From a virus, in IMG/VR virus record IMGVR_UViG_3300032236_000576, positions 1-23,717 of that record: a stretch of DNA of 23,717 nt; one strand, written 5' to 3'. Below, in pieces: positions 2,116-6,054 of the stretch (the first letter of the stretch is position 1; the number at the start of each line of letters is the position of its first letter). Below the pieces are notes generated by a model. The model saw nothing but the letters and a program-made list of their open reading frames with translations. It was not told where the DNA came from and did no database searches. Both the position numbers and the translations under genes were made by a program.

Positions 2116-2780
2116 TGCACCCGATTCTCAGGCTTGACAAACCATTCATCCATAACACGAGTCGAATAAGCACCCTTGTTGAATTTGTCAGCGTTAGCCA
2201 TCCAGGTGCGGAACCTGGCAGCCATATCCTTGACAGACTTTTCTTTGCCGTTCGCAATCAAGTAATCAATCATCAAAGCAAGTTCAGCATCGAGGTTTGC
2301 GTTAGGGTATTGAGCTTGAAGTTTTGTTCGCTGATCGTCAGGCAAAGACCAATCATTTTTGAAGCCTTTTTCACTTTTTGCGCTTAAAGGTTCTTTAATG
2401 GTTAATATTATGTTTTGCGAGACACCTGTTGTCTCCCCTGTTTTACCTGAGTTGTCTCCCCTGACTACCTGAGTTGTCTCCCCTGGCAGATTATTTACCC
2501 AATCTGTCTCCCCTGAAACAAGCACCCAATACCGGTTCGCTTTGTATTGAGAATCGCCTGGTGCAGCGTTCAATTCGACACGCAACTCACCTAGCTCGAC
2601 AAGGGTTTGGATATCGCGTTGCACTGAGCGTTCAGAAGCGTTCGCGTAACGAGCCAGAGTCGCTTTAGACGGCCAAGCACCTTGATCGCCTTGATGGTTT
2701 GCAATGCCGAGCAGGACAAGTTTGGCCCTACCGGTTGCTTTGGAGTTGTTCAGAACGGCTGAAATAATTTCTATCGACAT
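2109..2780 (-). CDS. Winged-helix replication initiator / helicase-loader-like protein
   Basis: This 223-residue protein probably binds the phage origin and delivers the helicase encoded directly downstream. Residues 30-68 (GAWPSKATLARYANASERSV and on to the LVELGEL wing) form a typical winged helix-turn-helix. A flexible Gly/Thr/Glu-rich linker at about 90-125 follows, then a helical C-terminal domain ending RVMDEWFVKPENRVQW. This layout (N-terminal wHTH, linker encoding repeats, C-terminal partner-binding domain, helicase next door) matches lambda O or DnaD-type initiators, but I cannot name a family. The linker DNA contains iteron-like repeats. The start codon overlaps the preceding stop as TAATG. 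Confidence 0.75.
   Translation of the reverse strand: MSIEIISAVLNNSKATGRAKLVLLGIANHQGDQGAWPSKATLARYANASERSVQRDIQTLVELGELRVELNAAPGDSQYKANRYWVLVSGETDWVNNLPGETTQVVRGDNSGKTGETTGVSQNIILTIKEPLSAKSEKGFKNDWSLPDDQRTKLQAQYPNANLDAELALMIDYLIANGKEKSVKDMAARFRTWMANADKFNKGAYSTRVMDEWFVKPENRVQW
2351..2515. other. Candidate phage replication origin (iterons plus AT-rich segment)
   Basis: The four iterons at 2430-2515 sit beside an AT-rich stretch at about 2351-2418. The part at 2391-2415 is almost entirely A and T. Iterons next to an unwinding region, inside the initiator gene and upstream of the helicase gene, is the arrangement of the lambda origin within gene O. The assignment is inference: the binding protein and unwinding have not been shown. 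Confidence 0.5.
2430..2515 (-). repeat. Four iteron-like direct repeats inside the initiator gene
   Basis: The plus-strand 11-mer TGTCTCCCCTG occurs exactly at 2430-2440, 2453-2463, 2475-2485 and 2505-2515, starting 23, 22 and 30 bases apart. The two middle copies extend to ACCTGAGTTGTCTCCCCTG. Read on the minus strand, three copies encode GGG GAG ACA (GET), while the copy at 2453 is in another frame (AGG GGA GAC AAC). The conservation is therefore in the DNA, not the peptide. Confidence 0.9.
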
Positions 2781-3040
2781 TAGAACGTGCCAGGTTCCAA
2801 GTAGCCGTAACGCTCAAGCTGTATCAGCGCAGACTCAAGGACGGCCTGCGGATCACTAAACTTTGTGCCATTCGTGGCGTAAAAGTCTGCTGCCAAAGCC
2901 GTTATGTTGTTGAACGCGGTCGCTTTGACAAGAATCCCCAGCTCGACGAGGGAGAGTCGTTCATCCATAATCCACGCAAAAGGGATTTGTGCGGTCTCAT
3001 TTTTTTGCGGTTTTACAATACTCAATTTACTGCCTTTCAT
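2780..3040 (-). CDS. Small winged-helix-like replication-module protein
   Basis: This 86-residue protein has a layout often seen in N-terminal domains of phage replisome organisers: residues 22-45 (AWIMDERLSLVELGILVKAT) followed by a helix and an ending of LESALIQLERYGYL, which looks like the wing-side helix of a winged helix-turn-helix. It may be a DNA-binding partner or autoregulator of the initiator that follows it through a TAATG overlap. No good Shine-Dalgarno precedes the ATG at 3040. Instead the ATG lies in the loop of a hairpin, and an AAAGG lies seven bases before an in-frame TTG (residue 6), which is an alternative start. Function is inferred from fold pattern and position only. Confidence 0.6.
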   Translation of the reverse strand: MKGSKLSIVKPQKNETAQIPFAWIMDERLSLVELGILVKATAFNNITALAADFYATNGTKFSDPQAVLESALIQLERYGYLEPGTF

Positions 3041-3067
3041 TGGTGAAGGCAGTAAACTTATACTGCC
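3026..3067 (-). promoter_or_regulatory. Leader with two mutually exclusive hairpins over a start codon
   Basis: In minus-strand sense the order is arm A GGCAGTA (3067-3061), arm B TTTACTGCCTT (3056-3046) and arm C AAGGCAGTAAA (3036-3026). B can pair perfectly with C over 11 bases, leaving the start codon of the 86-residue gene in a 9-base loop. B can also pair over 7 bases with A. The same three TACTGCC half-sites could instead be a protein operator. Confidence 0.55.
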
Positions 3068-3088
3068 AACAGGTCGTTTGTTGGTTTT

Positions 3089-3125
3089 GCGGTCAGGTCA
3101 TTTCGGTGGCCTGGCCGCTTTTTTT
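3089..3125 (+). terminator. Intrinsic terminator facing against the surrounding genes
   Basis: The plus strand has GCGGTCAGGTCA (3089-3100), a 6-base loop, TGGCCTGGCCGC (3107-3118) and seven T's. All 12 positions pair if two G-U pairs are allowed. Those pairs become A-C mismatches on the minus strand, and no T run follows in that direction. It is therefore a plus-strand terminator, though every gene around it is on the minus strand. Confidence 0.75.
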
Positions 3126-3128
3126 ATC

Positions 3129-3527
3129 TTATACCCGCTTGACTCGGGAGTTGTATTCCTGAGCTTCCGCTAACGCCATAATAAGCCCATAATCTGAAAC
3201 CGTTGCATTTCGTTTCTTCGGCGTTTTGTAAACCGGCATCACAAAAGAAACAGCAGCCGGTTCGGTGTGGTGAACGACTCGAACACAGTCACGGTGCTTA
3301 CAAATCGACTCATCCAAGTAAAGCCGTTGGCCCCACTCATCAATCGGGTAATCGTCGGCATCAAAAAACCCCTGGTGTGGCACACAGTAATCTTCCGCGT
3401 ATTGCACACGAAACAGTTGCCTTGCCTGGCAGTCTCGACACAGAGGCGTTTTGCCACGATCTAAAGACTTCCGGTAACCATCCTCAGACAAGCAGGTTCG
3501 GCCACAACGGTCGCAATCGTAAAGCAT
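3129..3527 (-). CDS. Zinc-finger protein, paralogue of the 569..841 protein
   Basis: This is a 132-residue protein if translation starts at the ATG at 3527, which has GAGAGGA eight bases upstream. A longer frame reaching 3575 would overlap the HNH gene and lacks such a site. It carries CDRC at 5-8, CRDC near 31-34 and CKHRDCVRVVHH around 79-90. The order of motifs with its paralogue is CxxCG, CxxC, Y-x-E-x-C, FD-x-x-D-x-P and C-x-H-x-DCVRV-x-H. It adds a basic C-terminal tail that contains PVYKTPKKRN. The last cluster recalls zinc sites of HNH-family nucleases, but no obvious catalytic histidine module is present. It probably binds nucleic acid; function is unknown. Confidence 0.7.
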   Translation of the reverse strand: MLYDCDRCGRTCLSEDGYRKSLDRGKTPLCRDCQARQLFRVQYAEDYCVPHQGFFDADDYPIDEWGQRLYLDESICKHRDCVRVVHHTEPAAVSFVMPVYKTPKKRNATVSDYGLIMALAEAQEYNSRVKRV

Positions 3528-3547
3528 AAAAGTTCCTCTCAAAAAAC

Positions 3548-3877
3548 TTATTTCTCTACGAGGATACGCCCCCACTTGTTATCAAGCAAATACCACCTGT
3601 TTGTCGGGTAATGGTAGACCGGTGTTGTTTCGGGAACCGCGCCACGGTCACACTTCCAACCAGCCAGCCGCGCCGACTCAGCAGCTCGCGACGAGGCTTC
3701 CATTTCAAAGTTCACGAACCAACACAACAGAATCAGGTTCGCAGGGTTATCGCGCCTGTTAGACCCACCCATACCCCGATTGACACGGTGTTGGACAGTA
3801 ATGTTTTCGGTCGTGCCACAATGCCAACAAACTTCTTCGTCGCGCAAAACAAGTTTCTTACGATCAGCCGGCTTCAA
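3548..3877 (-). CDS. HNH endonuclease-like protein, second zinc knuckle lost
   Basis: This 109-residue protein shows CWHCG at 17-21, the histidine segment VQHRVNRGMGGSN at 28-40 and NPANLILLC at 44-52, which is the standard first half of an HNH nuclease. The usual second CxxC/CH is not intact: C52 is followed by W-F-V55-N, then E58-M-E60 where Cys and His are expected. Phage HNH proteins usually nick or cut DNA and often help terminases cut at cos sites, but those tend to lie beside the terminase, unlike here. The TTG start overlaps the preceding stop as TTGA. The degenerate metal site leaves activity uncertain. Confidence 0.75.
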   Translation of the reverse strand: MKPADRKKLVLRDEEVCWHCGTTENITVQHRVNRGMGGSNRRDNPANLILLCWFVNFEMEASSRAAESARLAGWKCDRGAVPETTPVYHYPTNRWYLLDNKWGRILVEK

Positions 3878-4224
3878 CGCCCAACCCCCGAAGTCTTATA
3901 CGTCAACTCAACCATCCTGGCTTGCGACTGCACGTTCGTTTGAACATCCTGCAAATGGCGCAGTTTCGCCTTCACACGGTTCAGTTTTGCTTTAGCCAAA
4001 TCCAACTCAAACTTTACTTCCGCGGCAGCCAACGTCGCCAAAGCCTGACGATCCAACGCGGTTCCTTGCGAATCCAAGACAGCCTGTGCCTGAGTTCTGG
4101 AATACTCAAAATCCAGACGAGCCACCTCACTCTCGCACTCAAATAACGCATCCACGCCCTTAGCGGCCTCAGCGCGAACCGAAGCCAGTTCATTGATTAT
4201 CGTGTCGGGTGTTTGAAACTCCAT
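3874..4224 (-). CDS. Coiled-coil protein of unknown function
   Basis: This 116-residue, almost wholly helical protein is rich in Ala, Glu, Leu and Lys from about residue 10 to 100, with heptad-like spacing that predicts a coiled coil, then a short polar tail ending TSGVGR. No catalytic or metal motif is visible. The start is well supported by GAGAGG at 4232-4237, eight bases upstream. It overlaps the HNH gene downstream by four bases and lies two genes after the recombination pair. An accessory role in recombination or replication is possible from position alone. Confidence 0.7.
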   Translation of the reverse strand: MEFQTPDTIINELASVRAEAAKGVDALFECESEVARLDFEYSRTQAQAVLDSQGTALDRQALATLAAAEVKFELDLAKAKLNRVKAKLRHLQDVQTNVQSQARMVELTYKTSGVGR

Positions 4225-4366
4225 TTTTTAGCCTCTCAGACAAACGAAAAACCTCAACCTTAGCCAACTCGGCAATCTCAAACTGGCCAACAGCCAACGC
4301 CAACTCACGCAACTCATTTTGTTGCTTTATTGCCGCCCACAGAATCGCCCGTGTCCTTGAATCCAT
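4190..4366 (-). CDS. Small helical protein bridging two genes
   Basis: This 58-residue ORF fills the 89-base gap between the annealing-protein gene and the coiled-coil gene and overlaps both (53 and 35 bases). The ATG has AAGGA eight bases upstream. The product is predicted to be helical over residues 3-48 and contains the Q-N-E-L-R-E-L-A-L pattern, with no Cys or membrane segment. I do not recognise it. The ribosome site of the next gene lies within it. Without this gene the region would be an unusual gap in a tightly packed operon, which together with the ribosome site is the main argument that it is real. Confidence 0.5.
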   Translation of the reverse strand: MDSRTRAILWAAIKQQNELRELALAVGQFEIAELAKVEVFRLSERLKNGVSNTRHDNQ

Positions 4367-4844
4367 CAGCTCGTTCCTTGATAACCGTCAAAACATTTTC
4401 AGCCGCACCAGCCTGGCGAGCCTCTTGCCATAACATTCTTAGTTTATCTACATCGACGAGCTTGGCAGCCTCAGTGATCCAGTCACGGTTGTCCAGGCTT
4501 CGAGCAACCTTTTGCATTTCCTCACGGCTCGGGCCACGAGACCCACCCAAAGCCCAACGAAGCGCACGACCCAAAGCCGACGTGTTCGCGTTCTCCAAAG
4601 CCGACGTTTTGTTAGCCATACCTTGACCGTCAATTTCAAACGCCCACTCAGTAGCCTTCGGCAAATCATTCGCCTGGTCATCAGCCGACAAATACACTCG
4701 CGCCTCAACAACCCACACACCCTTCTCACGATCCTCCGGTGTCGAATGGTTCAGCAACACACAACGCAAGTCAGGGAACGCCTCAATCGCTCGCGCGTGA
4801 CGTTGCTCCACAGTCTCGTAACTGTTCAAATCAAAATTAGCCAT
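4314..4844 (-). CDS. Putative single-strand annealing (Erf/Sak-like) recombination protein
   Basis: This 176-residue protein probably anneals the single strands made by the exonuclease encoded just upstream. The visible family signal is NKTSALENANTSALGRALRW around residues 78-97, which resembles the ENAETSAIGRAL motif of Erf-like and related phage annealing proteins. The N-terminus (YETVEQRHARAIEAFPD) followed by a VVEARVYL strand is also familiar from actinophage proteins found beside YqaJ or RecB-type nucleases. The start overlaps the exonuclease stop as TAATG and has AAAGGA upstream. The annealing role is inferred from motif and partner; an accessory role in replication is the alternative. 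Confidence 0.65.
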   Translation of the reverse strand: MANFDLNSYETVEQRHARAIEAFPDLRCVLLNHSTPEDREKGVWVVEARVYLSADDQANDLPKATEWAFEIDGQGMANKTSALENANTSALGRALRWALGGSRGPSREEMQKVARSLDNRDWITEAAKLVDVDKLRMLWQEARQAGAAENVLTVIKERADGFKDTGDSVGGNKATK

Positions 4845-5776
4845 TATTTGTTTCCTTTCTTAGCGACAAGAAACGGTGCTGCACCGTTCCGACCAGCCTG
4901 GCGAGTAACAATCACGTCACCGTCAAGCAATCCCTTCTTAGCATCCCCCATTTTGTCCAACACTTGCGACTTCAAAGCAAACAAACCAGCCTCAGCCTGA
5001 GCCGCAGCTTGTTGAGCGTTCAAAAACTCAACACCCAAATCAGCCAACTCCACAGCCTCGTCGCTAATATCAGGATTCAAAGCCCTAACAGTCTCGTAAG
5101 TGTTCGCCGAACCATCCCAATCAGGCCGTTCACCCGACTCGAGAGACCCCAAAAACTTGATCACCAGGTCACGGTCAACGCTTTGTTGAAACTCGTCAGC
5201 CTCAATCAAATATTCGCGATACTTGTTGCCGGTAAACAACGCACAAACAATGGCTTCTTTGAACCCGAAAACACGCAAATAGTGTTGCACTTGTGTCCGG
5301 TAGTAGCGTGGAACACCCTCAGAACGCCCCAGAACGCCGTGTGTGCCAATTTCCCAATCGTCAGGGTAGGCAGCCGTTTTGATTTCAATAATGCCGTATG
5401 AGCCATCCTCGCGCTTGTAAATGCCGTCAGGGTTTGCGTGCGCCCATTCATCGACGGTGTTGTGCCAGGTTCCGCAATCCTTCCAAACTTCCAACTCAGG
5501 GTGCGACTCCTCAAACTTGTCCAAAATGACAGCCTCGAGACGTGACCCCCACTCCATCGGTTCCGACTGCGGAATAATCGACGAAATTTTGCCCGACTTC
5601 TTAGCCCACAAAGTAAACGCAGACTCCCAACGATTCAAGCCACAAATCGTTCCAACCTCAGAACCACCAATACCGGTGCTTCGAGCTGCGTGCCACTCTG
5701 GTGATCCGTTCACAAACAGGCCATCAAACTTCGCCGAACCCAACTCTGTCGGCAGGTTTACACTTGAATAAGACAT
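4844..5776 (-). CDS. YqaJ/lambda-exonuclease-family recombination exonuclease
   Basis: This 310-residue protein belongs to the PD-(D/E)xK phage exonuclease group that resects double-stranded ends for recombination. Counting from the upstream ATG at 5779, visible motifs are WHAARSTGIGGSE at 29-41, WGSRLE at 77-82, ANPDGI at 115-120 with D118 and IIEIKTA at 130-136 with E132 and K134, followed by a QVQHYL helix. All expected metal ligands are present. Two ATGs are adjacent. The second, at 5776, is better spaced (seven bases) from AGAGG, so I chose it. It is the first gene of the leftward early unit and is coupled to the putative annealing partner. Confidence 0.92.
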   Translation of the reverse strand: MSYSSVNLPTELGSAKFDGLFVNGSPEWHAARSTGIGGSEVGTICGLNRWESAFTLWAKKSGKISSIIPQSEPMEWGSRLEAVILDKFEESHPELEVWKDCGTWHNTVDEWAHANPDGIYKREDGSYGIIEIKTAAYPDDWEIGTHGVLGRSEGVPRYYRTQVQHYLRVFGFKEAIVCALFTGNKYREYLIEADEFQQSVDRDLVIKFLGSLESGERPDWDGSANTYETVRALNPDISDEAVELADLGVEFLNAQQAAAQAEAGLFALKSQVLDKMGDAKKGLLDGDVIVTRQAGRNGAAPFLVAKKGNK

Positions 5777-5800
5777 CATTATTCCTCTCTGGTGTCAGGG

Positions 5801-5831
5801 AAACGCGCCGTTGAGTAAATCCGGTGCGTTT
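5801..5831. promoter_or_regulatory. Inverted repeat in the divergent intergenic region
   Basis: AAACGCGCC (5801-5809) and GGTGCGTTT (5823-5831) are complementary with one G-T pair, separated by 13 bases. The site lies in the about 100-base gap between the leftward exonuclease gene and the rightward gene pair, where both early promoters should be. It could be an operator or a leader hairpin. A possible plus-strand promoter, TTGAGT (5811-5816), 19 bases, TTTAAT (5836-5841), overlaps it but is weak. Confidence 0.4.
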
Positions 5832-5877
5832 TTCCTTTAATGTGTATTAGTATTCAAACACCAAGAGAGGACATTTT

Positions 5878-6054
5878 ATGGTGAAGAAAAACCCCGACGG
5901 AACGTTTGACGTTATTTGTGAGACTTGCAACGGCAAACTCAGCGACTATTTACTGCCGCACAAGTATTTGGTCAACACGGCCGACAAAGCCAGCGAACTT
6001 GCCTGGTCAAACGGTTTTAACACAACACTGACGAGGTGCAGTTATTGTGTCTAA
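5878..6054 (+). CDS. Small zinc-ribbon protein, first gene of the rightward pair
   Basis: This 58-residue protein is on the plus strand. Two CxxC pairs, CETC at 14-17 and CSYC near 54-57, form a probable zinc ribbon that brackets a helical middle. The start is well supported by AGAGAGGA at about 5864-5871 ahead of the ATG. The downstream WhiB-like gene begins eight bases before its stop, so the two are made together. The family is not recognised. A DNA- or RNA polymerase-binding accessory to the WhiB-like regulator is a position-based guess. Confidence 0.7.
   Translation: MVKKNPDGTFDVICETCNGKLSDYLLPHKYLVNTADKASELAWSNGFNTTLTRCSYCV

Follow-up and report, generated by a model that had tools for sequence, protein, structure and literature searches.

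The window, meaning the whole 23,717-base IMG/VR virus record IMGVR_UViG_3300032236_000576, carries its replication genes in a block of minus-strand genes at its left end. All plausible genes between 9 and 5779 in the open reading frame listing lie on the minus strand, and plus-strand genes, one of them WhiB-like, follow from 5878 on. In two relatives (L089 and L091) whose sequence reaches further to the left, nearly all of the longer open reading frames in the extension are also on the minus strand. The minus-strand early operon and the plus-strand WhiB-type genes diverge from an intergenic region at 5800-5880, where the early promoters are probably sited.

The features of the region are collected in Table 1. 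The 148-aa gene had no PHROG match, and no Pfam family was found for the 81-aa protein. By eye, the latter is like the N-terminal part of RepO-type initiators (IP..W..D.RLS...), and it is perhaps a split or auxiliary initiator. Synonymous-site conservation in its gene is mildly raised at both ends, an observation to which we give no weight as evidence. The direct repeats inside the O-like gene are likely, by analogy with lambda, to be the iterons of an intragenic origin.

Table 1. Genes and features in and around the replication operon of the window
Feature	Position	Strand	Details
DnaB-like replicative helicase	883-2115	minus	phrog_19 1.3e-81
Replication initiation O-like protein, helix-turn-helix HTH_36	2109-2780	minus	phrog_8540 1.6e-20; PF13730 5e-10
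Four 20-bp direct repeats, candidate iterons/origin	2421-2515		inside O-like gene; spacing 22-30 bp
First replication-operon gene, 81 aa, TTG start	2780-3025	minus	
TACAAT, proposed -10 of antisense promoter	3014-3019	plus	not conserved
Three-hairpin antisense RNA element (predicted)	3022-3127	plus	covariance-model match, R1 114 bits, R2 99.6 bits
Hairpin H1, 11 bp	3026-3056	plus	100% complementary arms; fold; pair counts
Shine-Dalgarno AAAGG of replication operon	3033-3037	minus	within 3' arm of sense H1 hairpin
Hairpin H2, 6-bp stem CCAACA/TGTTGG	3066-3084	plus	7-nt variable loop 3072-3078
Hairpin H3 and T-run, predicted intrinsic terminator	3089-3125	plus	complete form on plus strand only
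148-aa protein	3129-3575	minus	stop codon 3129-3131
HNH nuclease	3548-3877	minus	
RecE-like exonuclease	4844-5779	minus	

A predicted terminator and two further hairpins at the start of the replication operon

A first-pass annotation of the window had drawn attention to a strong plus-strand terminator with no plus-strand gene before it. Both parts of this description are borne out by the sequence, the second through the gene orientations given above. H3 has a 13-bp stem (3089-3101/3106-3118), a TTCG loop and T7 at 3119-3125, and thus the GC-rich stem-loop directly before a U-rich tract that characterises rho-independent terminators. Its predicted fold of -23.9 kcal/mol compares with -9.7 +/- 2.3 for shuffled sequences (z -6.2; 0/200 shuffles as good), and it was the strongest of five terminator-like plus-strand sites in a scan of the window. 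The minus-strand version contains three C-A mismatches, folds to only -13.9 kcal/mol and lacks a T-run.

Together with H1 and H2, the predicted terminator forms an element of ~105 nt in antisense orientation to the start of the replication operon, where it covers the leader, the start codon and the Shine-Dalgarno site. A transcript of it would extend from about 3022 or 3026 to 3125. The minus-strand complement of H1 contains the Shine-Dalgarno site and adjoins the start codon. An ATG at 3040 was considered as the replication-gene start and rejected; it is ACG or TCG in L001-L003, and the TTG at 3025-3023 is aligned with an ATG in L010-L012. The real start is this TTG, which places AAAGG (3037-3033) in an arm of the hairpin at 3026-3056.

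Collection of relatives

A protein search with the 81-aa gene yielded three contigs, and a profile search seven. The leader is present in five of the 81-aa-gene contigs (L006/L001, L007/L002, L003, L008 and L009), or six including the window. Between the window and these close relatives, all or nearly all 13 pairs of the terminator stem are kept through compensatory changes, and the G-U pairs of H3 in the close relatives would be C-A on the opposite strand. In four members of the 81-aa-protein family (L010, L011, L012 and L098), the three-hairpin leader gives way to a different, short one with a small hairpin; the element is therefore not essential, which counts against antisense control. In L010 and L011 the hairpin of the short leader holds the upstream stop codon in its loop, which suggests translational coupling instead.

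An initiator-protein search led to 65 loci. A terminator scan of these, with folds inspected for 28, found the same three-hairpin layout with unrelated stem sequences. Covariance model R1, run against 76 sources, gave 30 matches at E<=1. All 25 matches at E<0.01 lay on the strand opposite the replication genes, while four weaker ones (E 0.27-0.49) were set aside as chance-level. A match in the Pontimonas phage phiPsal1 (E 0.069 and 0.021), obtained with R1 built without phiPsal1, sits in the gap ahead of RepO and reaches the RepO start codon. A second initiator search gave 73 loci, many of them already known, in which model R2 found 26 matches, one per locus; 26/26 were upstream of the initiator and on the strand opposite to it. 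The new loci from this search were L148/L153, L152, L156/L157, L160, L169 and L171 (E 4.5e-4 to 7e-9).

The H2 motif was also sought in viral contigs without regard to genes, and two such scans returned at least 239 loci. Strong R2 matches (E<1e-4) were found in 28/80, 27/80 and 20/79 of these, and weak matches were dropped (two at E 0.04-0.1, two at E 0.06 and three at E 0.002-0.07). The motif scans alone added at least 53 distinct copies, which are uninformative on H2 because its stem and 7-nt loop were required by the search pattern. When pooled, at least 105 hits collapsed to at least 82 distinct copies, where distinct means different in sequence without implying an independent lineage; 81 are in IMG/VR phage contigs, including the window, and one is in the sequenced phiPsal1.

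Two protein-based scans of bacterial genome contigs found no relative. Among 11 sequenced phages with initiator homologues, ten (Decurro, Arielagos, Abidatro, Gingerbug, Cafasso, Renna12, Root, Ksquared, Mvi-Yong1342-1 and Penoan) had no element, and the sole match was phiPsal1, whose sequence had gone into the model applied to them. We infer aquatic actinobacteria as hosts on the basis of phiPsal1 and of the initiator relatives, which include Arthrobacter, Curtobacterium and similar phages. phiPsal1 is described in PMC6106888 as a lytic phage with a circular map, present at ~2% of host stoichiometry and lost from later preparations.

Some further observations were made on these contigs. Genes related to the O-like initiator encode repeated SGVT-type motifs, and phiPsal1 RepO carries CCACAGTGGAA repeats. 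Repeated runs of seven to nine G occur in L003 (~3790-4660) and, upstream of the O-like gene, in L022, L034 and L054. They lie in or beside a gene resembling a DNA methyltransferase by eye, and are possibly phase-variable tracts or assembly artefacts.

Fixed position relative to initiator genes and ribosome-binding sites

A recognised O/RepO-like winged-helix initiator was found by tblastn within 2 kb downstream, on the sense side, in 73/82 copies. Five of the nine copies without a match had under 600 bases left. Three others (L220, L251 and L291) have, by eye, a diverged helix-turn-helix-like protein, that of L220 being PF13730, followed by a DnaB-type helicase; L292 had no initiator within 2 kb on the sense side. 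For the copies known from the motif scans alone, the same tblastn search on the sense side recognised an O/RepO-like gene within 2 kb in 44/53.

At the edge of the element, a Shine-Dalgarno-like triplet stands 4-10 nt before a start codon in 80/81 copies, against 35.6 expected from shuffles (L247 was left out, being too short downstream). The triplet is predicted to be mostly paired in 76/80 copies. Comparison of the copies places the element at the point where translation of the replication operon's first gene begins, and the ribosome-binding site in the sense counterpart of H1.

Just downstream of the element on the sense strand, L056 has a short GTG-started frame that ends on the O-like start codon, the stop and start overlapping as ATGA, and a reading frame of 13 codons or similar was noted by eye at the element in L056/L059. 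The GTG-started frame is a candidate leader peptide, and its overlap with the O start recalls the leader-peptide coupling of plasmid R1.

Covariation and the strand under selection

Covariation of the hairpins in relatives, which the first-pass annotation had put forward as a check, was evaluated in alignments of increasing size. In A7 (9 sequences), 97.7% of 262 cells were paired and two-sided changes were seen in 12/30 pairs. For the three alignments fitted to the model, which lean towards it, the corresponding values were 95.1% of 651 cells and 25 pairs in A8 (23 sequences), 94.7% of 809 cells and 26 pairs in A10 (29 distinct sequences), and 93.1% of 2262 cells and 27/30 pairs in A11 (81 of the 82 copies at E<0.001; L156 fell out). 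In each of the four, 0/500 shuffles were as good by covariation score, percentage paired or two-sided-change count. Further pair types in A7 were not above shuffles (347/500). Sliding the partner as a control lowered pairing to 33-51%. H1 looks misaligned in L039.

The wobble pairs of H3 indicate which strand is selected. Read on the antisense strand, the H3 cells of 29 copies comprise 288 Watson-Crick, 78 G-U, 1 C-A and 2 other; in 81 copies there are 806 Watson-Crick, 209 G-U and 2 C-A, and in the 58 copies outside model building 575, 147 and 1, respectively. With 209 G-U pairs against 2 C-A, selection on the terminator stem therefore acts on the antisense strand. The comparison as a whole shows a three-hairpin structure under selection, with the terminator stem selected specifically as antisense. 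The first-pass annotation had asked whether the stem-loop or T run is lost in relatives. The outcome favours its proposal: the stem is kept, as described, and the tail stays rich in T, which makes up 52-90% of the bases at every one of 9 positions across the 81 copies. The unbroken T7 is absent from the five close relatives, and this imperfect tail counts against control by an antisense RNA.

H2 was paired in 174/174 cells in 29 copies, all Watson-Crick. Its loop is 7 nt long in 28/29 copies (6 nt by eye in L156) and highly variable in sequence, and by analogy it is a candidate site of loop-loop recognition. H1 was less well paired, at 79-97% by segment in 81 copies. Its cells comprise 212 Watson-Crick, 14 G-U, 5 C-A and 35 other in 29 copies, and the G-U to C-A ratios of 14/5 there and 19/12 in 81 copies give no clear strand preference. 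Both properties of H1 count against antisense control.

The promoter presents a further difficulty. TACAAT had been suggested as a -10 with no good -35, and both observations hold in the window. Its counterparts in relatives are TACAAG, TACGAT and TACTAA, so the proposed -10 is without comparative support. Sigma-70 scans with background ranking found no conserved antisense promoter, which also counts against antisense control. The best sigma-70-like score upstream was modestly above background (mean background rank 0.24), at positions that differ between copies.

Interpretation and alternative explanations

We give a probability of roughly 0.6 to the reading that a plus-strand cis-antisense RNA of ~100 nt, folded into three hairpins, covers the leader and start of the replication operon and controls translation of the initiator. 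The plus strand would be transcribed into an RNA of about 100 nt ending at H3, and its 7-nt loop would make a kissing contact with the complementary loop of the replication mRNA while that mRNA is being synthesised. From there pairing would extend and mask the ribosome-binding site, either by itself or by shifting the mRNA towards the sense hairpin that sequesters the site. More phage copies would bring more antisense RNA and less initiator output, and a loop this variable would confine control to the individual phage lineage, in the manner of plasmid incompatibility. An antisense RNA here had been proposed in the first-pass annotation. Its orientation, ~100-nt extent and overlap with the replication leader stand, given the strand-specific covariation, the fixed geometry and the association with initiators, while its placement of the start codon does not. 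Antisense control of initiator translation is the most likely function, and the element is best read as a new phage RNA family absent from Rfam 15.

The sense strand offers a different account, in which only the terminator acts on the antisense strand, where it ends stray transcription at the border of the replication operon, and H1 and H2 form a ribosome-binding-site switch in the mRNA with no dedicated small RNA. We consider this unlikely. In its favour are the decisive strand bias of H3 alone among the helices, the overlap of H1 with the Shine-Dalgarno site and the failure of the scans to find a conserved promoter. The predicted sense-strand fold hides the ribosome-binding site without an antisense RNA, which counts against antisense control. 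In the sense RNA, an alternative helix is possible between the H1 region and the 3' arm of H2 plus its flanking bases (mean 6.7 bp vs 5.3 shuffled), which lends a switch moderate support, but this helix is individually significant (p<0.05) in 9/29 copies and thus not in most. Inspection of a few copies by eye turned up neither a pseudoknot nor any cis pairing between the H2 loop and the sense leader. The close spacing of H2 and H3 is left unexplained by a terminator and switch, as is an H2 loop of constant length and variable sequence, which is typical of RNA-RNA recognition loops.

It is improbable that antisense transcription itself matters, through interference with the replication genes or origin activation, and that the RNA is a by-product. 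The geometry is similar to that of lambda, where a short antisense transcript lies beside gene O, ends upstream of it and accompanies origin repeats in O, and the window has iteron-like repeats inside its O-like gene. In lambda, as reported in PMC3985674, pO affects replication mainly through transcription rather than through oop RNA, which was without effect on O-P mRNA stability. Covariation in H1 and H2 and a 7-nt loop of fixed length would, however, not be retained in a by-product, and that no promoter was found weighs against this account as well. Single-stranded DNA hairpins serving replication as priming or strand-conversion sites are very improbable; replication genes and origin-like repeats are close by and G-T pairs are tolerated in DNA too, but the T-rich tail, the fixed position at a ribosome-binding site and the DnaB-type theta replication genes would be left unexplained.

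If the antisense RNA reading holds, a new structured RNA family with strong comparative support occupies the point at which aquatic viruses that are abundant but little cultivated control their DNA replication, and antisense control of rep leaders extends from plasmids to phage O-type initiators. More tentatively, aquatic actinophage-like viruses might share a widespread plasmid-style antisense brake on replication, whose lineage-specific kissing loops act as a copy-number and incompatibility system, so that a resident phage could stop a co-infecting phage from replicating if the two had identical loops. The antisense reading, if true, would allow loop-specific incompatibility between phages to be tested concretely and would be a source of orthogonal natural antisense pairs.

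Comparison with known systems

Against Rfam 15 there were 0 matches at the gathering score, and the best sub-threshold match, Chlorobi-RRM RF01697 (23.3 bits vs 45), was chance-level. No description of a three-hairpin element was found in the searched literature, which had few subscription papers and included accounts of phage small RNAs (PMC12197685) and of structured-RNA mining (PMC8040213).

In geometry the element is like lambda OOP, and in logic like plasmid CopA/RNAI. It shares with the pO-oop-tO unit a short antisense RNA by a phage initiator gene, with its own terminator and with origin repeats inside that gene. OOP is described as a 77-nt RNA antisense to cII (PMC3349717), and from what is reported it targets the 3' end of that upstream gene, whereas the element described here lies opposite the replication operon's own ribosome-binding site and folds into three conserved hairpins, with a variable 7-nt loop. 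The putative RNA ends at 3125, before the stop codon of the neighbouring 148-aa gene, and so does not overlap, as OOP does, the 3' end of a cII-like gene; it is therefore not a member of the OOP family. Extrachromosomal mycobacteriophage prophages are described as having RNA-based origins beside parABS, with no RepA and with an RNA implicated in initiation (PMC7157519). Both cases tie a noncoding RNA to the replication of actinobacterial phages; the element, unlike the origins so described, precedes a protein initiator.

Plasmid replication antisense RNAs are known from R1 (CopA), ColE2 (RNAI) and the pT181/pIP501 type. The element resembles them in being antisense to an initiator leader, in its stable stem-loops and in its terminal terminator. 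It is complementary to the leader and translation start of a replication gene in the window and in 80/81 copies, and its conserved stem-loops include a variable loop through which the partner would be recognised. It differs in being found in phage contigs by O-like winged-helix initiators, in its structure and in having no Rfam match. The YUNR U-turn motif, common in kissing antisense RNAs, is also not enriched (43/81 copies, or 53%, vs 56% expected from column composition), which counts against antisense control. YUNR is not a strict requirement, since pMV158 RNAII, treated with the rules for plasmid antisense RNAs in PMC4485353, is also described there as lacking it. The resemblance to plasmid antisense control suggested in the first-pass annotation is thus strengthened by the strand-specific covariation, the fixed geometry and the association with replication initiators.
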